Shown here: one piece after another, positions 2,378 through 63,029 of the stretch | Layout: every line of letters begins with the position of its first letter | Position numbering within the stretch: position 1 is the first letter of the stretch | Translations under genes and position numbers: made by a program | The notes under the pieces: generated by a model | The model's database searches: none | Seen by the model: the letters and a program-made list of their open reading frames with translations, nothing else | Told to the model about the DNA's origin: nothing | NCBI GenBank assembly: GCA_016618085.1 | Contig: JABLTG010000021.1 | Coordinates: 1-64,000, forward strand | DNA: 64,000 nt | Source: Neovahlkampfia damariscottae | Taxonomy: Eukaryota > Heterolobosea > Selenaionea > Neovahlkampfiida > Neovahlkampfiidae | Reading direction: 5' to 3'

Positions 2378-5300
2378 TTATTTCAAAAATTGATTTGAAG
2401 TAACTTTTTGAAATTTCTTAACTTGCATAATTGATCCTTTTCTTGCATATGACACTTGATCTTCTTTATTTTTTTTGGATAACATTTCATAAAACATTTT
2501 CTTTTGTTGAACATTACTTTTAATATTAGGATTTAAAATAGATGCTCTCATATTTCTTCTTGACATTGGATCTGAAGTCATAAAACTCATATCATTTGAT
2601 GATGATGAAGGTCTTGATGATTTTTGATTTCTGAACATATCCGGTTTCTTTTTTAAATGAACAATTGGTTCAATAGATTCTTCAAAATCATCAATTTCTT
2701 TTTTTTTTTCAAATTCAACTGAAAAGTTTTCCATTTTCATTCTAAATTCTTTATCTTTTTCAATAATTTCAATTTCAGTTGCATCTTCATTATCTGCTAA
2801 CCAATCTAAGGTATCAATCACTTCCATTTTTATTAATTTCTTATTTTTAATTTCAATTTCTGTTAAATCATCTTCTTTTTGAATTCTTTTTTTCACTTTT
2901 CTTCCAAAATCAGTTAATGATTTCTTTGATTCTGCTTTTTTAATTAATTTTTCTGCTTCTTCAATAAATTCTTTTTTCTTATTTTCAAGATCATCTTCTG
3001 TTAATTTTTCATCATTCAAATCAATATTTTCAATAAAATCTAATAAATCATCTGAATTCTTATTCACTTTTTCTTTTTCTAATTCAGTAAGAAATTCACC
3101 TAAATCATCATCTTCAACTCTTTTTTTTAATTTTTTTCCAACTTCAACTATTCTTTTTTTTGCAGCTAATTTCAATATTCTTTCTGCTTCACCTAATATT
3201 TCAATTCTTTTCATTTTAATTTCTTCTTCAGTTGCATTTGGATTTTCTGCCATCCAATCTAAAAATTCTTGAGTTGATAAATCAATAATTCTTTTTTCTT
3301 CTTTTGTTAAAAATGGTGTTAAATCATCATCTTCAATTTCTTCATTTTGAATTCTTCTTTTCATTTTTCTTCCAAAATCTTTTAATTTCTTTTTTGTTTC
3401 TGCTTTTTTAATAATAACTTCAACTTCACCAAATATTTCAATTCTTTTTGCTTCAATTTCTTCTTCAGTTGCATTTTCATTTTCTTGCATCCAATTTAAG
3501 AATTCTTCTGTACCTTGATCAATTCTTCTTTTTTCATCTGATGTAAGATATGGACCTAAATCATCTTCATCTTCAACTCTTTTTCTTGATTTTCTTCCAA
3601 AATCATTTAATTTCTTTTTAGTTTTTGCTTTTTTAATTAATGTTTCTGTTTCTTCAAAAATTTCAATTTTCTTTTTTTCAATTTCTTCTTTATTTGAAAT
3701 ATCACAATCTTTCATCCAATTTAAAAAGTTTTCTGTTGCCAAATCAATTCTTTTCTTTTCTTCATTTGAAAGATATTCACCTAAATCTTCATCATTATCA
3801 ATTCTCTTTTTATAATTTCTTCCAAAATCTTTGAGTTTCTTTTTTGATTTTGCAATATTTTCAAGAGGTATGAGAATATCTAAAAATTCTTTTTCTTTTT
3901 TTTCCATTTCTATAATTTCAGAATTTGGATGTTCAGATAACCAATCAAGAAATGAATCAACACCAAGTGTAATTCTACCTTTTTCATCAATATTTAATTC
4001 AGATAATTCATCAGTTTCATCTTCCATTCTTTTTCTTGTTTTTCTACCAATATCATTTAATTTCTTTTTAGATTCAGCTTTTTTAATCATTTTTTCAACT
4101 CGACTATAAATTTCTTTTCTTTTTGCTTCAATTTCTTCTTTTGTAGCATTTTCATTTTCTTGCATCCAATCTAAAAATTCTTGATTGGTAAGATCAATTA
4201 TTTTCTTTTCATCTGAAGTGAGATATGGACCTAAATCATCATCATCTTCAACTCTTTTTTTTAATTTTCTTCTGTTATCCATTAATTTCTTCTTTGTTGC
4301 TTTTTTAATTGTTTCCTCTGCTTCTTTTAAAATTTCATCTCTTTTTTGTTCAATTTCTTCTTTAGTTGCATCTGATTTTTCTTCCATCCAATCTAATAAT
4401 TCATGAATTCCAAAATTAATTTCAGCTTTTTCATTTGATGTTAAATATGGTGCTAAATCATTATCATCTCTGATTCTTTTTCTTAATGTTTTTCCATAAT
4501 TTCCAATACTTTTTTTATCACATTTTTTTGTTTCTTCAACAATTTCATTTGAAATATCTTTGAAAGGTTCTCTTGTTTTTTCAACTGATATTTTAACTTC
4601 CGTTTCTACTTTTGGTTCAACTACAGAATCTTCTGTTTTCGTTTCAAATGATGCAGTTATTGATACATCAGGTTCAACAGGTGTCACAGGTGATAAATCT
4701 TGTTTTGTTTCAATTGGTGAAGGTGATAGTTGTGGTGGATTCATTGATAAATCTGAATTAGTTGCAGTTAAAATTCTTGTCTTTTTAGTTCTTCTAGATA
4801 TTTGAATTCTTGAATTATCTGGTTGATCTTCAATTTTTGGTGGAGTAGATTCAATAATTTGAGATCTTCTAATTTTCTTTGGTTTACTTAATTGAATCAA
4901 AGAAGATCTTTGTGGAAGTATCAATGAACCTGTACCAGTATTGATAATTGAATTTTTTGATGGAACAAGAGCTTTTTGTTTTTTTCTTCTGAATTTTGGT
5001 TTATCATCAAATATTGAATATACTTTTGAAGCTCTTTCATTTAATTCATTCATTTTAGAATCAACATCTTCTTCATCACTGAAAATAGTAACTAGTGATG
5101 ATATATTTTCCATATTCGTTTTTAATTCATCAACCATTGAACCTAAACCTGGTGGATAAACAGCTGTATCCTTAAGGTCTTCTAAAAGTTCCTCAATTCT
5201 TAATATCTTTTCAAGAATCTTTTCGCATTGAATAAAGAAAGAATCTTTCTTTTCTTCATATTGTACTAATTCTAATAAATTACTTCCTAATTTCATTCTT

Positions 5301-6235
5301 TCTTGTCTTTTAAATATTAATTTATCACTTTTTTCAAGATCAGAAATTAATTTTTCATCAATTTCAATTAATAAATCATACATTTTTTTTGTTTTCTTTT
5401 GTGCTTCTTTTTCAATTTCTTTTGTTTGAATTGGTTTATTTCTTTGTTCTTCATCTTCTTTTAATAATGCTCTTAAATTTTTTAATTTTTCTGGTTTTCT
5501 TGTTCTTCTTCTTGAAAGTATCATTTTAGTTTCTTCTTCACTTTCTTCTTGTTCTTCTTCTTCCATTTTAACCATTGTCTTTTGATATCTCATTAAAATT
5601 GAATTTTCAATTGTAGGTATTTCAGAAAGATCAACTTCAACAGCATAATTTTCTTCTTCAAGAAAATCTAAATTAATTTCATGTTCTAAAATTTCTTCTG
5701 GTTTATTTTCATTTGGATTAAATTCAAGTATTTTTAAAATATCAGTTAATTCTTTTGAATTAATAACTGAAGATAATTTTTCATTCATTGATTCAATTGG
5801 ATTATCTGAAAGTTTTATAGCTTGTAAATTATCTAAATTTGAGAATTCATTTTGTGGAAGAATTGAAATATTATTAAAACTTAAATCAAGTTTTTTTAAT
5901 TTTTTACAATTTTCTAATCCACCAGATGAAACTTCATAAATTGAATTATGATCCAATAATAAAACTTCAAGGTTAATTAATTGACATATTTCTTGTGGTA
6001 TTTTTGTTAACTTATTATAACTTAAATGAATAACTTTTAAATTTTTCATAAACTCAAAAAATGTTTGAGGTAAAAGTTTGATACAGTTTGAAGATAAATA
6101 TAAATTAATAACTTCTTGTTTTTTATAAAGAGTTTCTGGTATATTTGATATACCTTCTCCTGTTAATTCAATTTCATATTCAGAGAATTCCATTAAAGAG
6201 TTGTCAACTCCTTCATCCTCTTGCATAAAAAACAT
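2378..6235 (-). CDS. LRR protein with eight tandem Hsp70-lid-like domains
   Basis: Intronless, 1285 aa from ATG 6235 (a second ATG lies 9 nt on; upstream in-frame TTG codons are not starts). Residues about 20-155 are leucine-rich repeats (LYLSSNCIKLLP, IHLSYNKLTKIP, LLLDHNSI, LDLSFNNISILP, IKLSDNPI). Residues about 155-575 are acidic, coiled-coil then Ser/Thr/Pro-rich linker. Residues about 577-1180 are eight repeats of about 75 aa with the core DLxxYLTxxEKxxID...FLDWMxENxxATxEEIExKRxEI. This matches the C-terminal lid of Hsp70: the Hsp70 at 22023 reads [16 protein letters not shown] where repeats here read WMAENPNATEEEIKMK and WMQENENATEEEIEAK. The tail is Ser/Lys-rich. No ATPase or substrate-binding beta-sandwich is present. 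Shares a 45-bp divergent promoter with the gene at 6281. Function unknown; a scaffold or chaperone-related helical array is a guess. Confidence 0.85.
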   Translation of the reverse strand: MFFMQEDEGVDNSLMEFSEYEIELTGEGISNIPETLYKKQEVINLYLSSNCIKLLPQTFFEFMKNLKVIHLSYNKLTKIPQEICQLINLEVLLLDHNSIYEVSSGGLENCKKLKKLDLSFNNISILPQNEFSNLDNLQAIKLSDNPIESMNEKLSSVINSKELTDILKILEFNPNENKPEEILEHEINLDFLEEENYAVEVDLSEIPTIENSILMRYQKTMVKMEEEEQEESEEETKMILSRRRTRKPEKLKNLRALLKEDEEQRNKPIQTKEIEKEAQKKTKKMYDLLIEIDEKLISDLEKSDKLIFKRQERMKLGSNLLELVQYEEKKDSFFIQCEKILEKILRIEELLEDLKDTAVYPPGLGSMVDELKTNMENISSLVTIFSDEEDVDSKMNELNERASKVYSIFDDKPKFRRKKQKALVPSKNSIINTGTGSLILPQRSSLIQLSKPKKIRRSQIIESTPPKIEDQPDNSRIQISRRTKKTRILTATNSDLSMNPPQLSPSPIETKQDLSPVTPVEPDVSITASFETKTEDSVVEPKVETEVKISVEKTREPFKDISNEIVEETKKCDKKSIGNYGKTLRKRIRDDNDLAPYLTSNEKAEINFGIHELLDWMEEKSDATKEEIEQKRDEILKEAEETIKKATKKKLMDNRRKLKKRVEDDDDLGPYLTSDEKKIIDLTNQEFLDWMQENENATKEEIEAKRKEIYSRVEKMIKKAESKKKLNDIGRKTRKRMEDETDELSELNIDEKGRITLGVDSFLDWLSEHPNSEIIEMEKKEKEFLDILIPLENIAKSKKKLKDFGRNYKKRIDNDEDLGEYLSNEEKKRIDLATENFLNWMKDCDISNKEEIEKKKIEIFEETETLIKKAKTKKKLNDFGRKSRKRVEDEDDLGPYLTSDEKRRIDQGTEEFLNWMQENENATEEEIEAKRIEIFGEVEVIIKKAETKKKLKDFGRKMKRRIQNEEIEDDDLTPFLTKEEKRIIDLSTQEFLDWMAENPNATEEEIKMKRIEILGEAERILKLAAKKRIVEVGKKLKKRVEDDDLGEFLTELEKEKVNKNSDDLLDFIENIDLNDEKLTEDDLENKKKEFIEEAEKLIKKAESKKSLTDFGRKVKKRIQKEDDLTEIEIKNKKLIKMEVIDTLDWLADNEDATEIEIIEKDKEFRMKMENFSVEFEKKKEIDDFEESIEPIVHLKKKPDMFRNQKSSRPSSSSNDMSFMTSDPMSRRNMRASILNPNIKSNVQQKKMFYEMLSKKNKEDQVSYARKGSIMQVKKFQKVTSNQFLK
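2696..4507 (-). repeat. eight tandem ~225-bp coding repeats (Hsp70-lid-like)
   Basis: Repeat units start with the motif LxDFGRKxxKR or variants (IGNYGK, LMDNRRK, LNDIGRK, LKDFGRN, LNDFGRK, LKDFGRK, IVEVGKK, LTDFGRK) and run about 73-78 residues each. Copies 2 and 5 are the most alike (DLGPYLTSDEK in both); copies 3, 7 and 8 have drifted, copy 7 with an insertion after the Trp-equivalent position (LLDFIENI). Protein similarity exceeds DNA similarity by eye, so the array is old rather than freshly amplified. Confidence 0.85.
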
Positions 6236-6280
6236 TTTGGTTACTTTAACCAATGAAAACAATTTTAGTTTTTTTAACCA
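6236..6280. promoter_or_regulatory. 45-bp divergent promoter with CCAAT boxes
   Basis: Only 45 bp separate the ATG at 6235 (minus) from the ATG at 6281 (plus). The stretch reads CATTGGTTAAA twice on the minus strand; the second copy begins 18 bp before the minus ATG, and the other forms CCAAT overlapping the plus ATG (TTAACCAATGG). There is no room for any other spaced core promoter, which makes this the clearest case for the CCAAT element acting at the start codon. Confidence 0.55.
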
Positions 6281-7915
6281 ATGGAAGTTTACCGTTTCAA
6301 TGCTTCACTGAATTGGGATAGTGAACATGATGCAAACCCATGGGATTTAAGTTATGCAAATATTGATATTGGATTTAATTTATTTCCAACAGACAGAATT
6401 CAAATACCTGTTACGTATTTTTTTAAAAAATAAATAACTTTTTTAGTTATTTTCAGGATGAATATGGTAAGAATTCATGGTCTATCGGTTCAGAATTATT
6501 TTATAATTTTTCACCAAATGGAAGATATATAGAAGAAGATGAAAATATAATTCAAGATGAAGTGTAATATAAATTAATATTTAATTCAACTTAGAAACCA
6601 AGAATATTTTTCAGTTTGGGAATCTTTTTATAATGAATACTTTAAAAATAATCCTTCAACACCACAAAAATATTCCAAATTAAATAGAAAATCAATTCTT
6701 CCACCTCCGAACAATGAAAATATTTTTGAACCAACATTTCAAAAAGAAAATGAGTCTAAAAAAGAAAATGAAAATGAAATTAGAAAAGAAATTTATCCAA
6801 GAGAAAAATTAATTGAATTCTTTGATGACTTTCAAGGTGTATTCAAATTATATTTTCAAAAGACTTTGGACTCCAATACCATTCAAACTATTTTAGTGAA
6901 TCACATGTTTACAACAATAGGTAAATTATTAATTAAAAACTAAAAGATTTTAAAAGGAAAGAGAAATAGATTTGGTGCAAACATTGGATTGAATACATTC
7001 ACTAAAAAAATATTTGATAAGTTTTGGTATAAAAGAACGATAGGAGATTATTCAAATCCATTTTATTTCATCACATCAGTTGTAAATCCTCATTTAAATG
7101 ATATGGTATCAACAATTCCAAATTTGATTAATTCTTTTTTAATAGATTTCTTCAATTGGATATGGTACAAGAGGAGTTTGGTTAAATTTCAAACATTCTA
7201 TTAACAATAATATATTTTCAATTTCGAAGAGATCATTTTGGACACCATTTTCCAGAGAATTTCAACAAAAAAATCTTGAAAATTGGAAAATTTATTATGA
7301 TGAAGAAGGTATTGTTCAAGAAATGCCATTACCACCAACAATCGAATATTATTTACCACCTGAAATGGAAATGAAAGACTGGAAATATTTCAATTTTTTT
7401 AGAAATATTATTCATCAAGTATCAAAAATATTTAGATATTTTATTGATGTTCAATCTTCATCACTTCAAACTTCACTGCAAGATGTATGGTCATTAAAAA
7501 CATGGAATGCTTCTTTTTGGAAGAAATATTATGAACAAATGTATATATTTTCTTCTGGATTTTTATCAAGATTTTCATTTGAATTCAATTGGAATAAATC
7601 AATTCGTATTCCATTTGATATGCATTGGGTAACAAAAAAAGTATTGGGTTTATTCTAAAATTTGAAAAGGGTTGTGATTTATTTAGAGTTTGGTTATTAT
7701 TAGATATTTATTGGGAAAATATTGAAGGAAATTGGTTACCAAAGCATAAAGCAATTATTGCTGTCACCTGTATTCTATTTCAATTGTTGTTTAATTTTCT
7801 TTTAGTGTATGAAATTTATACTTTATGTGAATATACATTGTCTTTAAATCCTTTAATTCAAAAATTTATATCATTTTGGAAGAAAATTCGTCATTTTTTC
7901 AAAAAAACAATTTGA
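6281..7915 (+). CDS. unrecognised 479-aa protein with a C-terminal membrane segment
   Basis: Six exons joined by five introns (6410-6456, 6564-6594, 6921-6956, 7106-7145, 7629-7669) give exactly 480 codons. The centre is rich in alternating aromatic/hydrophobic and polar residues (GYGTRGVWLNFKHS, FWTPFSREFQQ, IEYYLPPEMEM), which could be beta strands; near the C terminus AIIAVTCILFQLLFNFLLVYEI is one clear transmembrane helix, followed by a basic tail. I do not recognise the family. Divergent from the LRR protein, sharing its promoter. The start is fixed by the CCAAT overlap and by frame. Confidence 0.75.
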
Positions 7916-22022: not shown

Positions 22023-23957
22023 ATGTCAAGTGAATATCAAGGCGCTATTGGGATCGATTTAGGTACAACTTATAGTTGTGTTGGAGTTTGGCAAAACGAT
22101 TCAGTTCAAATTATTCCTAATGATCAAGGAAATAGAATTACACCTTCATATGTTGCATTTAATGATGAAGAAAGATTAGTTGGTGATGCAGCAAAAAATC
22201 AAGTTGCAATGAACCCAAAAAATACAATTTTTGATGCAAAAAGATTAATTGGCAGAAAATTTGATGATCCAGTTGTTCAAGCAGATATGAAACATTGGCC
22301 ATTCAAAGTTATTAAAGGAGAAGGAAACAAACCACTGATCAATGTTACATACAAAGGAGAATCAAAAACATTCCAACCAGAAGAAATTTCTGCAATGGTT
22401 CTTGGTGAAATGAAGAAGATGGCTGAAAACTATTTAGGAAAAACTGTAAAAAAAGCTGTTATTACATGTCCAGCTTATTTCAATGATTCACAACGTCAAG
22501 CTACAAAAGACGCTGGTAGAATTGCTGGTTTAGAAGTTCTCAGAATTATTAATGAACCAACTGCTTCAGCTATTGCTTATGGTTTGAATAAAGACAGACA
22601 ATCAGATACAAACGTACTCATTTATGATTTAGGTGGTGGTACTTTTGATGTATCAATTTTAACAATCACACCAGAAGGTGTTTTTGAAGTTAAAGGAACT
22701 GGTGGTAATACACATCTTGGGGGAGAAGATTTTGATAATAGATTAGTTGATTACTTCAAACAAGAATTCAAACAAAAATACAAACAAGATATTTCAACAA
22801 ATGCTAGAGCTTTAAGAAGACTTAGAACTGCTTGTGAAAATGCAAAAAGAAATCTTTCATCACAAGCAAAAGCTACCATCACAATTGATTCATTATTTGA
22901 AGGTATTGATTTCAACACTTCAATCACAAAAGCTAAGTTTGAACAATTGAATATGGACTTTTTTAGAGAATCAATTTCACACGTTCAAAAAACTTTAGAA
23001 TCATCAAAAATTGACAAATCAGCTATTCATGAAGTTGTTTTAGTTGGTGGATCATCAAGAATTCCAAAAGTTCAAGAGTTATTATCAGACTACTTCAATG
23101 GAAAGAAATTAAACAGATCAATCAATGTAGATGAAGCTGTAGCATATGGTGCAGCGGTTCAAGCAGCTGTTTTAACAGGAAAACAAAAGGATGTTTTAAT
23201 TTTAGATGTTGCTCCATTATCATTAGGAATTGAAACTGCTGGAGGTGTTATGACAAAATTGATTGAAAGAAATACGACAATTCCATGTAAAAAATCACAA
23301 GTGTTTTCAACATATCAAGACAATCAACCAGGAGTTTTGATTCAAGTATTTGAAGGAGAAAGATCAATGACAAAAGATAATCATTTACTTGGAACATTTG
23401 AATTATCAGGAATCCCACCAATGCCAAGAGGTCAACCAAAGATTGAAGTTACATTTGAAGTTGATGCTAATGGTATCATGAATGTTTCAGCTAAAGAAGA
23501 AACTGGAGGAAAATCAAATAAAATCACAATTAAAAATGAAAAGGGTAGACTTTCAGAAGAAGATATTAAAGAAATGTTGAAAAAAGCTGAAGAAATGAAA
23601 AAATATGATGAAGAAGTTCTAGGAAAAGTTACAGCAAAAAATGCACTTGAATCATATTTATTTGCAATTAAAAATGCAGTATCAGATCCAAAATTAGAAG
23701 GAAAAATTGATTCAGGTGATAAATCTGCTATTGAATCAGCTGCTGATGATGCATTAAAATGGATGAATGAAAACCCTGAAGCAACAAAAGAAGAATATGA
23801 AAAAAAACAAAAAGAAGTTGAAGGAATTGCAATGCCAATCTTACAAAAATTGCAAGGAGGTATGCCCCAAGGTGGAATGCCAAGTGGTGGAATGCCACAA
23901 CAAACTCAAGATCAACCAGATTCATCAATGAAGTTTGAAGACTTAGATGTTGATTAA
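22023..23957 (+). CDS. cytosolic Hsp70 chaperone
   Basis: 644 aa, intronless, the length of cytosolic Hsp70. Signature 1 [14 protein letters not shown] at residues about 10-23, signature 2 [14 protein letters not shown], signature 3 [17 protein letters not shown], linker [15 protein letters not shown], then the beta-sandwich and the helical lid ([28 protein letters not shown]). The C terminus has GGMP repeats and ends FEDLDVD rather than the usual IEEVD, so only the final Val-Asp of the TPR-binding tetrapeptide is kept. ATP-driven folding in the cytosol/nucleus. Codon choice looks more regular than in neighbours, as expected for high expression. Confidence 0.97.
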
Positions 23958-27340: not shown

Positions 27341-28920
27341 ATGAGTTTAGTTGTCTCTGGTTTTAAATCATCTCCAATCTTTTCTGAAATTCAAGAAGGT
27401 ATAAAAGGAAATGAAGAAGAAATTATAAAAGAATTTAATTCTGTTTTACAATTTGATTTGAAAGACTCAACTGGAAAATTAGAAAGTTGGACTTTAGATT
27501 TTAAAAAAGCATCAGTTTATAAAGGAAAAGCTAAAGATTCAGCTGATTGTACTTTGATTTTATCTGACGAAGTTTTTTTTTTTTTTTTTTTAAATTTTCG
27601 GTATAAAAGAACTGTTTTGGTCTTATGAATGGAACAATTGATGGAACTGAATTATTTTTTGATGGTGAACTTAAAATCAAAGGTGATATGTCATTAGCTA
27701 TGAAATTAAGTTCATTAAAAGACCATAGATCAAAATCAAAAACATTGAACACCTCATCAACACCTTCTGCTAGTGCTCCATCAACAAATGTTAAAGTTGA
27801 TGGATTCAAAAGTTCAGAAATATTTCAACAAATTGCTGATGCAGTTTTGAAAAATCCAGAAGTAGGAAAAGACTTTGGAGGAGTTTTAGAATTCGCACTT
27901 ACAAATAAAGATGGTAAAAAAGAATCATGGACTTTAATTCCATCACCACCAAGTATGAAAGTTGGAAAAGCTGAAAATGCAGATGCTGTAATTATTATGA
28001 AAGATGAAGATTGTGTTGCAATTATGACAGGAAAAACAGACGCAACTGAATTATTCTTTGATGGTGCACTTAAAATTAAAGGTGATATGTCATTAGCAAT
28101 GAAATTAAGTTCATTAAAAGATACTGCTTTAAAACCAAATCCTACAAGTGCTCAAAGTATCATTGTTCCTGGATTTAAATCATCAAATATTTTTGCTGAA
28201 ATTGAAGCAGGTATCAAAGAAAATCCACAAGTTTTAAAAGAATTTGATGCTGTCTATGAATTTGCTCTCTCAAGTGAAAAAGGAAAACAATCATTCACAG
28301 TTGATTTAAAAACTGGAAAAGTAACAGTTGGAAAAACAGGAAATCCTGATTGTACTCTTATTATGACAGATAATGATTGTTTTGATATTATGTCAGGTGG
28401 AAAAGATGCAACTGAATTATTCTTTGATGGTGCACTTAAAATTAAAGGTGATATGTCATTAGCAATGAAATTAAGTTCATTAAAAGATTATAGATCAAAA
28501 TCAAAAGTTATTGCTCCTTCATCAACACCTGTATCAACTTCTGAAGAATCAGGTAATTCTGTTTCAATTGCTGGTTTCAAATCATCTGCTGTTTTTGATG
28601 AAATTCAAAAAGGTTTAAAAGAAACTCCAAGTTTAGTGAAAGAATTTGAAGTTATTTATGAATTTAAATTAACAAATTCATCTGGAAAAACACAATCATG
28701 GACTGTTGATTTAAAAGATGGAAAAGTTATGGCAAATGCGCCTTCTTCACAAGCTGATTGTCAAATAATTATGACAGATGAAGATTGTTTTGCAATTATG
28801 ACAGGAAAAGCTGATGCAACTGAATTATTCTTTGATGGTGCACTTAAAGTTAAAGGTGATATGTCATTAGCAATGAAATTAAGCACTTTAAAAGAAAAAG
28901 GAATTAAATCAAAATTATAA
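27341..28920 (+). CDS. protein of four tandem SCP2 sterol-carrier domains
   Basis: 513 aa, one intron (27572-27609), exon sum 514 codons. Four successive SCP2 folds of about 120 residues, each opening GFKSSxIFxEI and closing with DCxxIMTDxDCFxIMxGK, DATELFFDGALKIKGDM and SLAMKLSSLK. The last block is almost identical between copies at DNA level, implying recent duplication or conversion. Single-domain SCP2 proteins carry lipids or fatty acyl-CoA in peroxisomes and cytosol; no C-terminal SKL is present (ends IKSKL, which is close to but a residue off typical; SKL are in fact its last three residues, a canonical PTS1). ATTGG is about 25 bp upstream of the ATG. Confidence 0.93.
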
Positions 28921-38839: not shown

Positions 38840-41742
38840 ATGGCCATAAAAGTATGGCCTTTTTTCACGCATGATGAAGAAGTACCCTCAATTTTTTTTT
38901 TAACATTTTTCTTTAGGAAACAAGCTGTTGCTGGCCATTTTTTATTTTTAAACATGATGAAACAACAGAATTCAGTTGGCATCCTTTTGTTTTCAACCTT
39001 CGTTGTGGTGAAGAATTTTTATTGAACATATTCTTTTTTTTATTTTTTATAAGAAAGACTAGCAGTAGTTTTACAATTACTTTATTTTTTGGTTTATTTG
39101 TTTTCACTTCAGGAGATGATTATACTTGGTTTCATATTTTTCCATTATTCTTTCATTATTCAGGAGATGATACCTCCTTTCAAATGTTGTTTTTACTATT
39201 TATAAGAAAAAAAACAAGTGAATCAACCTTTTTAGCTGCTTTACCGTTCATTTGGATTTACGCTTCAAAAGATACCTGGAGTATTGGTTTGATTTTAGCA
39301 ATACATATTTATTGGAGTGAATTCAATTTTACATTGAATGTATTGCTCTTGCTATTTCATTTTTCAATTGATGATGACAAAAACTTTCATTGTATTTTAT
39401 TTCTATTTTTAGCTCTATACAAATCAAAGTACACAATAATAGTAATTATACCGATTTTGTTATCTGCTTTTCATGTAAATCCTGATGAAAAATCGATTTT
39501 CTTTACCTTATTTTTATTATATTGGTCATATGTATCTATTGATGATGGAAAATTTGAAATGACCATTTTTGCATTTATATTTTATTTATCTTTTGCTGAC
39601 AAAAAAATTGATGGATTTTATTTGTTTCCATTATTTTTATATTCAAATGGTGATAATGCTTTTTGTGGAAGTTGTAATGATGATTTAGTTTTTATTTGTT
39701 TCATTATTCCAACTTATATTTCATCTGAAAATAATAACATCACTATTTACTCGATTATATTTTGTCGAAGTATCAGTGGAAAGGATAAATTCTATTCATT
39801 GTTTATTGGCTTATTTATTTATACTGAATCGTCGTCAACAAAAAAATTATGGTTATTGGCTCCTTGCTTTTTTGTCATTTTCTCTGATGATTATTTTTAT
39901 ATTATGTTTTTGCCAACATTAACATTTTACTATAAAAATTATGAAAAACCAACTGATGCCTTGTATGCAACTGAATTCCTTTCAATCGCTTACTTTTTGA
40001 TTGGCTTTGGAAAAATTGATAATTTTCAAACAAATTGGGTATTCCCATTGTACCATTATTACAGTATTGATGATAAAGACGAAAAGACTCGTGGGTTATT
40101 TTATGGAACCATTTTAGGACATATTCATTCAAAACAAACAAAAGATGAATCTTTATTTAGATCATATTTAATCCCACTTTACTTTGTTACAAAAACATCA
40201 TACACCGGAGATAATGAATCTTCAATTTTTGTTTGGATATTTCCAATTTTCATTTACAAACAACCAGGTGGAATTTTAAAGAGATTAATTCATGGGGAAT
40301 TTGAAATATCAGATTATAAAATTCAAAATCATTTTCTATTCATTGCATTTACAGTTGAAAATACTGCTCAAAAAACAAAAACCTTTATTTTGTTTTTTGG
40401 TTTGATTGGTGGAGAAACGTGCACTGACTCGGAAGATTACAACACTTATTGGTTGCTTACGATGATCAAAATCAAAGAAAAAACTAAAACGAAATTTATG
40501 ATCCTTCCAATCTTCATATGGACAACAGAAACTGATCAAATTGATTTACTTTTAATTTTCATGTTGACAAGATTTACAATTGGAAAATATATTTATGGAT
40601 TCATTATTTATGGTCTATTACATTTCAATCATGACAAGAAAACAAGAGAAACATTGGTTTTACTATTTTATATTTACAGTTATTCTATCTTCAGATATCA
40701 AAAAGAGATTATTCACCGAAATACTAACAAAGGAAAGACATTTGTCACCAAAGCAAAGTTTTATCTTTATATTTTATGTTATTTTGAAAAGATCAATTCC
40801 AATTTCTTGATTAAAAATAACTCAAAAAAAGATGAAATCAATTTATTGGTTGATGAATATAATGCAGCTTCATCAAGATTTTATATGTCAATATTTTGGA
40901 TATGGACTCATTATGGATTGATAAATTATCTATTTGATTATACAGAACATCGTACTTTAATGTCTGTTTTCTTGCTTTTCAGATTTGAAAAAATTGAAAA
41001 TTTTCTTTCTTACTATGCAGTTGAAAATAGAAAGAAATTATGGAAATTTTCATTATTTTGGATTGCCACTGATAAAATTGCATTATATCGATATGAAACT
41101 TGTTTTGAAAATAAGTCATTTGAAAAGATCATTTCCATGGCATTTCTGATTCATTACCTCAAAAAAATTGAAATAACAAAAGACTCAGAAATTGAAAAAT
41201 CAACAACTATATCAATGATACCTATATTTTTACATTACAAAACAGCATTAATTCATCATTCAACTGTGTCAAGTGAAAAAAAAAGAAATTTCAAATTTTA
41301 TGTATTCCCACTAATTTGGTATGAAAAACAAAAAGAATCAAATTCATTCACCAAAGAAACAATCAGCAGTAATGATAATCAACACATTGAAAAATCAAAA
41401 ATTGATATTATTGACTTTTGGATTTTATTCCTATTTAGATATTCATATAATCACAAACAAAGTTTAATTTCAATTTTACCATTGATTCCATTCAAATCAT
41501 GGTTAACTTTTTGGTTATGTTTCATTAGATATGAGCATAATGAATTCAAAGGTACAACTGAATTCAGATTATTATATAGATTAATATTATACAAATTAAT
41601 TGGTGATGATTTAACACTTGAAATCAATCCATGGTTAAATTATGAAGTTGATTCACAAAAAAATGAATGGAACTTTTTAGGTGGAATATTAGGTAGAAAT
41701 GAAGAAGAAGGATGTAAAATATGTTGTTGTTTTTGTTTCTAA
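38840..41742 (+). CDS. 955-aa protein of short aromatic/Asp tandem repeats
   Basis: Start ATG 38840 follows CCAAT (38830-38834) by 5 bp. A 35-nt intron (38882-38916) joins exon 1 in phase to a 2826-nt exon; total 956 codons. The repeat begins at once: WPFFTHDEE, WPFFIFKHDETT, WHPFVFNLRCGEE, LFFGLFVFTSGDD, IFPLFFHYSGDDT, LPFIWIYASKDT and so on, a period of about 17-18 residues with a hydrophobic/aromatic strand then a polar Ser/Asp turn. It weakens after about residue 330 but recurs (VFPLYHYYSIDDKDE, WIFPIFIYKQPGG). The C terminus ends CKICCCFCF, a likely lipidation site. Helices are not obvious; stacked beta strands are more likely. Family not recognised. Confidence 0.85.
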
Positions 41743-47448: not shown

Positions 47449-48592
47449 TTATTTTTCAACTGATTTCACAGAAATAGGTTCTGAACAATTTAAACATTGA
47501 CCAAATAACCTTAAAAAAGTATTAAAAAACAAAAAAAAAAAAATTTCACACGTGTTAAAAGATTGTTGTGTTGAAGGTAAAGAAATCAACCAAGCTGACA
47601 AACAAGAACTAATTAGAAATCATTAACTATACATTTTTTTCGAACCTGTGAAATGGCATGCAACATTTTTTATTATCACAAATTTTATCTGGTATTTCAG
47701 TATCTAATTTATAACACATACAAATACCACATTCAATACTGTAATCTAAATCATCTTCTTTTTCACTCTTTTTTGGAAAATTGAACTCTAATATACTCTC
47801 CAAGTTTTCTCTTAAATTTGATGAAGAGTTCCAATTTTTTAGTGAATGTAATTTTGATCTGAGTGGATTGATGAATGATTCTGAACCTAAAAATTCAACA
47901 TCTGGCATTGAAGTTGGGAAATTTGGATTTAATTCAATTAATAAAGAAGAATGTTTTCCAATGGCTATTCTTCTCATTGTATGAGAATATAAAGGATTTT
48001 CTGGTTCAATGATCCAACAATTTTCATCTAAATCTTGTAATATATCCCAAAATATTTGATATTTTTCAATTTCTTCTTTAAATTTTTTTAAAACTTCTTT
48101 TAAATTTTTGAATTTTAAATTGAAAATGATTGGTAAATCTAATTCATATTCAGAAATTGAATTTGGATATTCTGAAGGATTAATTTTAATCAAAATTGAA
48201 TGTTTTCTGTTTTTTTTATCTAAAAGTTCAAATGTTATCCTTGATAAATCGGAATTCATATCAATAATTTTAGACCAACCAATTTCATCAATCTCTGAAA
48301 TAATTTTGTTATAAAAATTAGTTGTTGGCAATTCAATTTGATTTTTTAAACATAATTTTTCAAAAATATGTTTCAATTCAAATAAAATAGTTTCAATATT
48401 TGTACATTGTAAAATTCTTTGTTTTATCATTTCTTCATGTTCAAAAATGATTTTCATTAATTCAGGATTTGATTTTATTAAAACGAAATTATTTTTTACA
48501 TCTATTTGAATTGGATATTCTTTTTTATCAAAATTTAAAAAACCTTGAAAAGAAGTTTCATTCGTCTGTAGAAGAAAATTAAAAATTTCCAT
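47449..48592 (-). CDS. FANCL E3 ubiquitin ligase
   Basis: 354 aa, introns 47609-47645 and 47510-47551, exon sum 355 codons. An N-terminal ELF/URD-type double-RWD region contains LIKINPSEYPNS and LLIELNPNFPTSMPDVEFLG, followed by the distinctive FANCL RING: CGICMCYKLDTEIPDKICDN, CCMPFHSSCLSAWLISLPST, QQSFNTLFGQCLNCSEPIS (human: CGICYAYRLDGTIPDQVCDN ... FNIIFGECPYCSKPIT). FANCL monoubiquitinates FANCD2/FANCI in interstrand-crosslink repair. Start ATG 48592 is 9 bp after CCAATCA and is chosen over upstream TTG. 34 bp from the next gene in tandem. Confidence 0.95.
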
Positions 48593-48626
48593 GTTGATTT
48601 TTGATTGGATAATAAAAAAACAGATT

Positions 48627-51600
48627 TTATTTTTTCTTCTTTGCATAAACTCTTGAATAAATTCTTCTAACTAAAGAATAAGGAAATGATTCTTCCCATT
48701 TTGCACTATCAATAAAATCTGTTGATGAAATTGTTTTATCAACAAAAATATAACAATTATCAATAACTTTTTCGTTTTGATTTTTCATTAAAAACATTAA
48801 ATAAGTTGCAAGATCAGTGAATTTCGAATATTCAAAATAAATTGCTTTTGGATGATCTTTACAATTTAATGCAATCATTAACGAATGAAAAGCTGTAATT
48901 GCTAAATGAGCATTATTATTCCAACCTTCTACATGAACATTATATTCATTTGAACTTGATGACCATGATGAAGAAAATAATAAACAAGCAAAGATTTGTG
49001 GAAGATATGCAAAGTTTGTGACTTTATCAGAAAGCATTAACATTGTATCTTTTAATACATGATCTATTTTATCTTTAAATATACCACAATCTAAAGCAAG
49101 TCCATCTGCATCAACAAATTTTATATCTTTCATATAATTTTCTGGATATTGAGAATATGTATTTTGAACAACATTATAAATTAAAGGAATTGATTTTTGT
49201 GTTGAAATTTCAAGTGCTTCTCTTAAATTTTTTCTAAATTCTAAAAATCCACCAATTGAAATTAAACAATCATATACTTTTTCAATTGATTTAAATTTTG
49301 ATTTTAATGTATCAAATAATTTCAAATTTAATTGTGGATCACTAAAAAGTTTTTCTAAATTTTCTTTAATCAAATCATTAAAAGGTGGTAATAAATCTTT
49401 GAGTTGTGTACAAAGAATTGTAATTTTTTGAACAATATGATAATCCATAACACGAACACCATATGGTCCAATCATTGTTGCAAGTGCAATTAATTCTTCA
49501 AAATCAAAATATTCTTCAACTTTATAAGAAAGATAAGTTCCTGAAGTTGAAAGAAATGATCTTCTAAGTGGATGATAAAGTATTTTATGTTTTGACATAT
49601 CCATAAGTACATCAGCATACCAAGTTGCAAATCTTGTTGTTGCATTTTCTGATGTATCCATAATTTGATGAACATATGGTGATTCAACATCATTCAAATG
49701 AACAAAATTTTCAAGAAAAGCAAATAAAATTAATTCTTCAACATTAATGTTAATACATTGTTCAACAACTTTAAGTACAATCATAAATACAGCAAGTTTT
49801 TCTTGTAACATTTTTGGTTGATAAAAAGCCAATTGAATTGCATCTTTATCACGTAATTTTTTATTTTCTGATGTAATAGTAGGTGGTGATTTTGATAAAT
49901 CAGAAACATGTCTTAAAATGATTAATTCTAATTTTTCTCTGAGAAATTCAGATGGATAAAAAATTGTATCATAAACTTGAATTTCATCAAATGTATTTAA
50001 ACTGTATAATAAATTTTTTAAGTTATTTTCAATATTGATTAATTGATAAACATAATCATCATCTAAAAATGATTCATATCCAGCTGGTTGAGGTACTTCT
50101 TTTTTTTGAATTTTAAGTTTAATTTTCATTCCAACTTTATCACCTCCTAATTGGTCAGCTAAAAATTGATATCCACCAGATCCTCTTAAATTGTCAATTT
50201 GTTTCTCAATTGCATCTAACATTGCATTAAACATATTCTTTCCTTCTGTAACACTAAAATATCCAATATTTGCTCTCATTTCAGGTACTGATTCATGTGC
50301 TGAATATTGATAACTATCTAATAATCTTAAAAATGAAAGTGAATATAAAGGACGATTATCATCTGAAATTAATCCATCTTTGAAGAATTTGGAAACTACT
50401 TTATCATAATAATATAAATCTTTTAAAATAGCAAATTCAACCAATTGTTCTTCAATTAAATCAACGTTTCTAATTGGTTAATATTTTGACAGGTTGACAC
50501 TTACTTTGAAATGTGATAAAAAATGTTGAGTGCTGAAAGTAATCTTTGAAAATCATCTTCAGTTCTTTCATTTTTAAATTTATCTGATCCAACTAACACT
50601 TCAAATCTTTTTAAATTGATTCTGAAAACTTTGAATGAACTTGGATCTGACAAATCAAGAAATGATTCAAATAAATTTTTCACTTTTTGTTCTTGATCTC
50701 CCGAATATTTTTCAATTAAACTTTTGATTTTTGGTACATAAACTTTTTTTAAAAAGTCTAAGTGATAATCAGCAATAACTATTAAAAGAAACCAATAAGA
50801 AATGTATAACTTTTTTACCTTGTTTTTTTTCTCTACAAATTGATGTGATTTCTAAGATTAAATGCATTAATTCTCCAAGATCTGTTTGTGGAATTTCACG
50901 ATATTTTTTTGCATTTTTCTTTGGTTGTTTTTCGTGGTGTGTGAAATACCAATAGATTTCCATCTTTGCCAAATGAAGAGCAGCCAAAACTAATTGAAAT
51001 TTTGGACCTGCTAAACCTGGAAAATCTCTTAACATTGTGAACAAAGTTTGTAATTGTAAACGTAAATAAGTTCTTTTTTTGAAATGAATTCTACTACAAT
51101 TCAAAGAGTATTCTTCTGATGTTCTTTTTTTTAAATTAGTTATAAAAACAGGATTCACTTACTTTAAAAGTGTCTTTTCTTTTTTGAGTTGAATTGAAGT
51201 AGCTTTGAATTTTGAAAAAACTTCATCAAAAAGTTCGTGTACATAAAGTGTTTCATCTCCATAAACAGTTACAAGAAATGTCTTGTTTAAAACAGCTGAA
51301 AGGTAAAATGTATAAAATTTTTTTTTGTTTACCTTGTAGTAATAAAACACCTTTGTTAATTTTGTGTCTAATTTTTTGAGTGTCAGAAACTGTATATCCT
51401 AATCCTTCTGGACAACATAAATATCCAAAAATGATCCAATCTCTCATGTTTTCATGATAAGCAATTTCAAAATATGACTGTTTTTAAAATGTTAAAAAAT
51501 ATGTTTTTTTTTTTTTTACATCTTCGACAGCTGGAAATGGAATTTTATCAGGGTCAGAAAGTAATTCAAGTGGTCTTTTAAAATTTAAAGCTTCAACTGT

Positions 51601-60736: not shown

Positions 60737-60787
60737 CTTCAATTGAGCATAAAACAATTGACCAATCAAACTAGTCAACCAATCAAA

Positions 60788-63029
60788 ATGGGTAATTCCT
60801 TTGTTGACCAAGAAACAGTTCACTCGGACTTACAAGCAAAAGAAAAACCGAAGAAATATTTAGTTTATTCTGCCAAGAAATTAACTCAAATTCCAGATTT
60901 ATCTACAATTGACTTATCAGCTGTTCAAGAACTTTTTTTTGACAATAATGAAATAACAAAAATAGAGTTTGATTCAAGCATCATAACCAAACTAAAAAAA
61001 TTAAAAAAAATATCATTTTATAAAAATAACATTAAAGAAATACCTGAAAATTTATGTGAATTTGACCAATTAGAACATTTATCATTGGACATGAATAAAA
61101 TAAGTTCATTGCCAAAGAATTTTTCAAGTTTAATCAATTTAAAGGAATTAAGTTTATTTTTAAATCGATTTAAAACTATTAATATTTCAAGCTGTCAAAA
61201 TTTGCATGACATAAATCTGTCAAGTAATTGTTTGACTGAAATTGACGTATCACAATTGAAAAACTTACAATACTTAAATTTAGCATCAAATAAGTAAAAA
61301 AAAATTGAAAATTAAATCACTCTACAGATTAAAAGAAATTCCTAAAGGAATTGAAAATTTAAAGAACTTAGAAATGTTGAATTTATGGTTCAATGAGATT
61401 TCTGATTTTGACATTGACTTTGAAAATTTAGAAAGTTTAAAATCATTAGATATCAGTTATAATCATATTAAAAAATTGAATGATTCATTTTCTAAACTCT
61501 CAAAATTAGATGATTTTGCAGGAATTGAGAATGAATTTGAAAGTTTACCAACATTTCCATTGTCCATTTGTAAAATTGAAATGAAGAAAAATAAACTGAA
61601 ATCAATTGAAAATATCTATTCAAAAGAACATAAAAATTTAAGAGAAATTGATTTTTCATTCAATCAAATTGAAAAAATTGATGAATTTCCACCTCTATGT
61701 ATGTCAGTGAATTTTACATATAATAAAATTAAAGAAATTCCAATTGAAGGATCACAATACATTGCAATGATGTTATTTTCCCATAATGAAATCACAACAG
61801 TTCCTAATGAACTTTCTAATAGTTTATATTTGACTAAACTTGATTTGGGATTTAACAAAATTAAAAAGATTCCTAGAGATATAATTTTGAAAACAAAGAA
61901 TATACAACATTTAATTCTTGCCAAAAATGAACTGGAAAGTTTTTTAGATGAAGATATTTCAACAGAAGATTCAATATCACAATTGAATTTTCGAAGAATT
62001 TCATTGGGTTTTAATCAAATCAAAAACCTTCCAGAAGAGTTTTTTAACTATTGTCCACATCTTACAGAATTAGATGTTTGTTGGAATAACTTGGAAAATC
62101 TTCCAAAATCACTGGACTTATTGGTCAAATTGCAATATCTTCACTTGGGTGGAAATAAGTTAAAAGATGACGCAATTGAGTCATTTTCTAAAATTGAACA
62201 TCATTTAAAGCAATTAATATTATCAGACAATGAATTTAAAGAGATCCCAAAATATGAAGAAAGATATGCAAAATTGAGAGAATGTATTCAAAATCAAGAT
62301 TCAGATAAAAAAGTTGGTGAAGCTGAAATGATTGGAAAACGATCATCATCAGAAGACTCAATGGTTATTGAAGAAAATTTTGATGATAATAGTTCTTTAT
62401 TTGCTGTATTTGATGGTCATGGTGGATCAATGGCTTCTAAACTTTGTGCACAAAGATTGAGACTTTTAACAAAAGATAATTTATCAAAATCAAAAGATGA
62501 ATCATTTGAAGAAGTATTTTCAATTTTAGAAAAAGAAGTCTGTGATAAATGTCCAAAATCTGAAGGAACTACAGCTACAGTTGTTTACATCAAAGACAAT
62601 GAATTGACATGTTCAAACGTTGGAGATTCAAGATCCATTATTTGTTCAAAAGAAAAATCAAAACAGATTTCAATTGAACATAAACCAACATTCAGAAATG
62701 AACATCAAAGAATCCGAAAAATTGATGGATATGTCACAAAAGATTCTCGTGTGGAAGGTATAATTGCAGTCAGTCGATCATTGGGTGATTTGACTTTAAA
62801 AAAATATCTTTCAAGCATTCCAGACATCTTAACAACTAAAATTGAACAGGAAGATGAATATATTATCATATGTTGTGATGGTGTTTGGGATGTTTTGAAT
62901 AATGAAGAAGTAAGAGAAATTGTAAATCCAAAATATGATTGCAATCAAAATGCAAGAAGATTAAGAGATTGTGCATTTGCTTTAGGATCAACTGATAATA
63001 TATCATCTATTGTAATAAAATTAAAATAA
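60788..63029 (+). CDS. LRR-PP2C protein phosphatase, N-myristoylated
   Basis: 735 aa, one intron (61294-61327), exon sum 736 codons. MGNSF is a strong myristoylation signal. Residues about 25-480 hold some fifteen leucine-rich repeats (LFFDNNEITKIEF, FYKNNIKEIP, LSLDMNKISSLPKNF, LNLWFNEIS, LDLGFNKIKKIP, LDVCWNNLENLPKSL). A PP2C domain fills the C terminus with metal-binding AVFDGHGGSMAS (about residue 530), GTTATVVYI, CSNVGDSRSI, VSRSLGD, CDGVWDVL and GSTDNIS. The essential Asp residues are present, so it should be active. LRR-PP2C fusions recall PHLPP. CCAATC ends 3 bp before the ATG; stop lies 2 bp from the convergent gene. Confidence 0.95.

Follow-up and report, generated by a model that had tools for sequence, protein, structure and literature searches.

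A leucine-rich repeat protein carrying eight tandem repeats related by sequence to the Hsp70 lid

Analysis of a protist genomic window (the whole 64,000-nucleotide stretch of DNA under study) identified a 1285-aa protein, encoded on the minus strand at 2378–6235, in which a leucine-rich repeat (LRR) head, a charged linker, eight tandem repeats and a basic tail follow one another, and a profile built from the eight repeats assigns them to the lid (SBDα) of Hsp70. Hsp70 ranks with the most conserved of all proteins, and work on its lid normally treats it as part of the ATP-driven clamp, while in the present protein neither the ATPase domain (NBD) nor the peptide-binding domain (SBDβ) was detected by Pfam, as the preliminary description made from the sequence had proposed. 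We know of no described family that combines LRRs with a lid array, and a search of the open-access literature found no paper on such a combination. The architecture thus represents a known fold in a new use and arrangement, and suggests that part of a universal chaperone became a building block.

Results

The open reading frame is intact, with 1285 codons that begin at ATG and are closed by a TAA stop, and the gene is a single open frame; several other genes of the window are apparently split by short introns. A lag scan over residues 561–1200 gave a sharp peak at 75 residues (mean BLOSUM62 score +0.69, versus about −0.5 at nearly all other lags), and the array was resolved into eight repeats of 74–78 aa spanning residues 574–1181, so that the eight ~75-aa repeats earlier placed at about residues 577–1180 stand with slightly adjusted boundaries. 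These are, all on the minus strand, R1 (residues 574–647, 4295–4516), R2 (648–722, 4070–4294), R3 (723–797, 3845–4069), R4 (798–872, 3620–3844), R5 (873–947, 3395–3619), R6 (948–1025, 3161–3394, having a 4-aa insertion in the C–D loop), R7 (1026–1103, 2927–3160, the most degenerate one, in which DFI replaces DWM) and R8 (1104–1181, 2693–2926). The repeats share 30–72% pairwise identity and the consensus KKKLxDFGRKxKKRIEDDDDLGPYLTxxEKxxIDLxxxEFLDWMxENENATEEEIExKRKEIxxExExxIKKAEx. For dating the duplications by synonymous divergence from repeat to repeat, the AT-rich codon bias is too strong.

Relatedness to Hsp70 was assessed by several sequence comparisons, each paired with a control. The window encodes a genuine Hsp70 (22023–23957, plus strand; 644 aa, lid at about residues 537–611; Pfam HSP70 6.1e-245), against which each of R1–R6 scored better than all 2000 of its own shuffles, always in the Hsp70 lid, and R8 was beaten by 5 of 2000, while R7 taken alone was not significant (281 of 2000). 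An HMM built from the repeats gave 32.7 bits to the lid of this Hsp70 and at most 7.2 bits to every other reading frame outside the array. When 177,635 PDB sequences were searched with the eight-repeat profile, the top 16 matches were all Hsp70-family lids (E 2.6e-6 to 0.0018) with alignments spanning nearly the whole repeat; the reversed profile reached 0.096 at best and Hsp70 was absent from its matches. A profile–profile comparison by hhalign against five Hsp70 lids, with sequences drawn from the window and from the PDB alignments, yielded 96.8% probability and an E-value of 2.2e-10 over 68 columns with 32% identity and one single-residue gap, compared with 0.5% probability for the reversed control. 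Majority residues of the repeats and of the Hsp70 lids were identical at 25 of 73 positions, and 100,000 shuffles of the consensus reached 19 at most. The alignment starts from about Hsp70 residue 539 and covers helices C–E, helix A and the N-terminal half of helix B being missing from the repeats. The match to the Hsp70 lid is therefore significant and specific, and the resemblance first read from the repeat core holds in the profile, profile–profile, shuffle and fold comparisons alike.

It might be argued that highly charged helical repeats are common, and that the array consists of convergent three-helix repeats which are lid-like by composition and unrelated to Hsp70. In line with this, no single repeat matched Pfam above a curated cut-off, only sub-threshold noise (e.g. 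TRIM_CC, Styelin and MIT) being returned, and R7 by itself did not reach significance. Convergence is nevertheless highly improbable, given that the composition-matched and reversed controls failed completely and that Hsp70 lids came first whether the PDB was searched by sequence or by fold. The profile score of the window Hsp70 (32.7 bits) is about equal to those of human Hsp70 and BiP (30 bits), and by this sequence measure the origin of the array looks old rather than being a recent copy of the local Hsp70 gene.

LRRs are the sole Pfam finding in the whole protein, and the Pfam scan did not report Hsp70 in this protein. The LRRs occupy residues ~20–150 (5786–6178; LRR_8 2.3e-20, LRR_4 1.2e-8), and the tandem motifs exceed the curated cut-off (PF13855, 72.6 bits versus a cut-off of 27). 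An identity as an XopAC/XopAE effector, raised by NCBIfam, was rejected, as the matches were confined to the LRR region at 34 versus a cut-off of 450 and reflect generic LRRs. The linker (residues 151–573, 4517–5785) is charged, helix-prone and then Ser/Thr/Pro-rich, with neither a known domain nor another lid copy in it. The tail (residues 1182–1285, 2381–2692) has 20% K+R, lacks a known Pfam domain and terminates in ...VTSNQFLK with no EEVD-type end. Neither PF00012 nor any other ATPase profile matched across the 1285 aa, compared with 814 bits for the window Hsp70; SBDβ had no Pfam match anywhere in the protein; and additional lid copies were found neither in linker or tail nor elsewhere in the window. 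Because three defining features, namely the NBD, SBDβ and the EEVD-type tail, are lacking, the protein is not an Hsp70.

The structure of the repeat was predicted by AlphaFold2 with the eight repeats themselves as the input alignment. The model of R5 with helix E of R4 in front (mean pLDDT 73.6) comprised helices at 2–41, 52–71 and 77–99. Foldseek against the PDB with this single-repeat model placed Hsp70/Hsp110 lids at all of ranks 1–17, with weak E-values of 0.018 to 2.7, and a search of a viral structure library found no convincing match. VIA-align superposed 97 residues of the model on BiP 533–629 (Z 11.7, rmsd 2.6 Å), and its first 15 rows were all Hsp70-family members, the first unrelated row having a Z of 9.0; since Z values near 12 are also seen in unrelated helical bundles, the fold comparison supports homology and would not carry it alone. 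The sequence profile is hence the main argument for homology and the structure is supporting evidence. As modelled, the repeat is a helical bundle that matches Hsp70 lids best and not a single long coiled coil, the outcome that would have spoken against a lid. By sequence and predicted fold together, the repeat is a member of the Hsp70 lid family without helix A and without a helix B of its own, the helices which in Hsp70 hinge and latch over SBDβ.

A model of R4–R6 (mean pLDDT 73.7, pTM 0.45) kept the same bundles and displayed unbroken 40-residue helices at 77–116 and 152–191, in each of which one repeat's helix E runs on into its successor's helix C. These inter-repeat helices had a pLDDT of mostly 70–88 in this model of pTM 0.45, a value at which the relative orientation of the bundles and the pitch and straightness of the array are uncertain; its low-confidence stretches were the first helix and the R6 insertion. 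In the superposition on BiP (model residues 1–97 on 533–629), the later part of Hsp70 helix B falls where the model has the preceding repeat's helix E. Spectrin repeats, of about 106 aa, are likewise joined by continuous helices, and so the array, as predicted, probably forms a rod.

A feature beyond those of the preliminary description is a basic patch on helix C. Its net charge is +6 to +8 in all eight repeats, compared with +1 in three Hsp70 lids, and positions 1, 2, 9, 12, 13 and 14 are basic in 7/7 compared repeats (R7 was omitted owing to indels). The basic side lies 140–175 degrees from the hydrophobic side, and we infer from the helical wheel that it faces outward. Acidic residues are concentrated in the C–D loop and helices D/E, which brings the net charge of the whole repeat to between −6 and +1, near neutral or negative. 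With a basic helix C in all eight repeats, a rod would show regularly spaced basic patches.

Discussion

The reading that we prefer, to which we give about an even chance, is that of a lid-derived scaffold rod which the LRRs would target and which would probably bind polyanions. Helices C–D–E of SBDα have been multiplied to eight tandem copies and split off from the ATPase and the peptide-binding β domain, a homology that the sequence profile shows and the predicted fold supports; helix E of each copy would run into the next helix C, replacing the end of Hsp70 helix B and giving, in a model of medium confidence, a spectrin-like rod; and helix C has gained a conserved basic face, presumably on the outside, so that the rod would present one basic patch per repeat. 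The LRR head would select a protein partner, the rod would span the distance, and the patches would bind an acidic polymer multivalently, possibly RNA or the ribosome, a tubulin or actin surface, or an acidic membrane. The protein would then act as a scaffold or tether without ATP-driven chaperoning.

A precedent for a basic lid is found in the yeast Hsp70 Ssb, whose lid carries a derived basic patch, as the array does, that is needed for ribosome binding, with Ssb contacting rRNA (PMC5123055). By analogy, multivalent polyanion binding is proposed for the rod, although the Ssb patch lies in the last two helices of a complete Hsp70 (PMC5123055), while the array bears its patch on helix C, once in each of the eight repeats.

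Three functions had initially been put forward for the array, a structural rod, a substrate clamp and a decoy for Hsp70 partners, and the rod fits best, the modelled repeats being fused by continuous helices. Whether the rod also binds polyanions is the point at which the closest rival departs: it could be a spacer only, with basic helix C paired with acidic helices of the neighbouring bundles, and we regard this as rather unlikely. The continuity of the modelled inter-repeat helices is in keeping with a plain spacer, and the near-zero or negative net charge of each repeat, with its acidic C–D loop and helices D/E, means that helix C may be basic for pairing and not for an outside polyanion. 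The basic positions, however, face away from the hydrophobic side of helix C, and they are (nearly) invariant among repeats only 30–72% identical, which is more than salt bridges need.

The two remaining functions would keep the array closer to chaperone biology. Hsp70 lids do bind partners, the 4kbq structure being that of the CHIP TPR domain with the Hsc70 lid-tail, and the repeats retain several of the common lid positions (DK/EK, W, A and EE), as would be expected if the lid copies preserved a surface recognised by cochaperones and gathered or titrated these. The retained positions, though, seem to belong mostly to the core of the bundle, the change that stands out most (the basic helix C) leads away from Hsp70, and the ORF has no EEVD-type tail, the part of Hsp70 which TPR cochaperones use; a platform or decoy is thus quite unlikely. 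We consider very unlikely a substrate clamp or ATP-independent holdase in which unfolded clients are picked by the LRRs and shielded by the lids. The module does descend from the Hsp70 subdomain that covers the substrate, but in Hsp70 the lid closes over a peptide held by SBDβ; with no SBDβ detected in the whole protein the clamp idea is weakened, and helix A and the N-terminal half of helix B are missing from the repeats as well.

Compared with known systems, the repeat is nearest to the lids of HSPA1A, Hsc70, BiP and yeast Ssa1 (PDB 2lmg, 3lof, 4kbq, 5e84 and 5z8q), with which it shares the C–D–E helix order, a near-gapless alignment, the L, D/E-K, W-M/L, A and K/EE positions and the predicted fold. 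Hsp70, however, has one lid, while here eight occur in tandem with neither NBD nor SBDβ detected and no EEVD tail, and the array has helix E of the preceding copy in place of helix B and a strongly basic helix C. The repeats of spectrin, α-actinin and dystrophin are tandem three-helix bundles with unbroken joining helices, as those of the array are predicted to be; the array differs in its shorter repeat (75 versus about 106 aa) and its descent, by sequence, from the Hsp70 lid, and neither the whole protein nor the single repeats matched a Pfam spectrin profile. The array may function as spectrin rods do, yet it is not a spectrin. The head belongs to the same class of short cytosolic N-terminal LRRs as that of Shoc2 and LRR-PP2C-type proteins; the present protein differs in that a lid array follows the LRRs and no phosphatase, kinase or formin domain is present.

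An eight-lid array without its engine would show the lid folding and evolving as an independent building block, would allow the binding partners of an isolated lid to be examined in a natural protein, and would add a non-spectrin route to spectrin-like rods. That it represents a new class of repeat proteins, in which a lid freed from the chaperone cycle forms a spectrin-like rod, each repeat offering a basic patch for polyanions and the LRRs serving as the targeting head, is a tentative proposal to which we assign somewhat less than an even chance. No relatives were found in viral contigs, prokaryote genomes or phages (the latter by tblastn), collections that hold no eukaryotes and do not address protists. 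As a scan with PF00012 alone misses the lid array, other lid-only proteins may be present without annotation in protist genomes, and LRR-lid-array proteins may occur among them; if found across protists, they would point to the exaptation of a chaperone subdomain as a scaffold of the cytoskeleton or of ribonucleoproteins.

Genomic context

The window is AT-rich (GC about 27%) and its gene content is eukaryotic, including Hsp70, the WAVE-complex protein Nckap1, FANCL, a SNARE, a C2 protein and an LRR-PP2C protein, while neither rRNA nor tRNA genes were found in it. Only ~45 bases separate the start of the lid-array gene from that at which a divergent plus-strand gene apparently begins (6235–6281), so any promoter would be very short or shared.

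Several neighbouring genes have features of their own. The window Hsp70 has a GGMP-type tail that ends in FEDLDVD (23900–23957, plus strand), unlike the usual EEVD. An LRR protein with a C-terminal PP2C phosphatase domain (Pfam PP2C 1e-54) is encoded at 60743–63026 (plus strand) in two frames that abut at 61294/61305 and are probably split by a short intron. A 906-aa open frame at 39022–41739 (plus strand), which has no Pfam match, shows regular hydrophobic segments between short charged turns, with a pattern like LFPLFxxYxxxDD. At 47630–50444 (minus strand), the frames of FANCL (UBC-like domains 1–3 plus the C-terminal domain) and Nckap1 overlap by ~20 bases (48627–48646). A second tandem-domain oddity of the window is a 431-aa protein at 27625–28917 (plus strand) with four tandem SCP-2 sterol-transfer matches (Pfam SCP2 1.2e-71, in 4 stretches).
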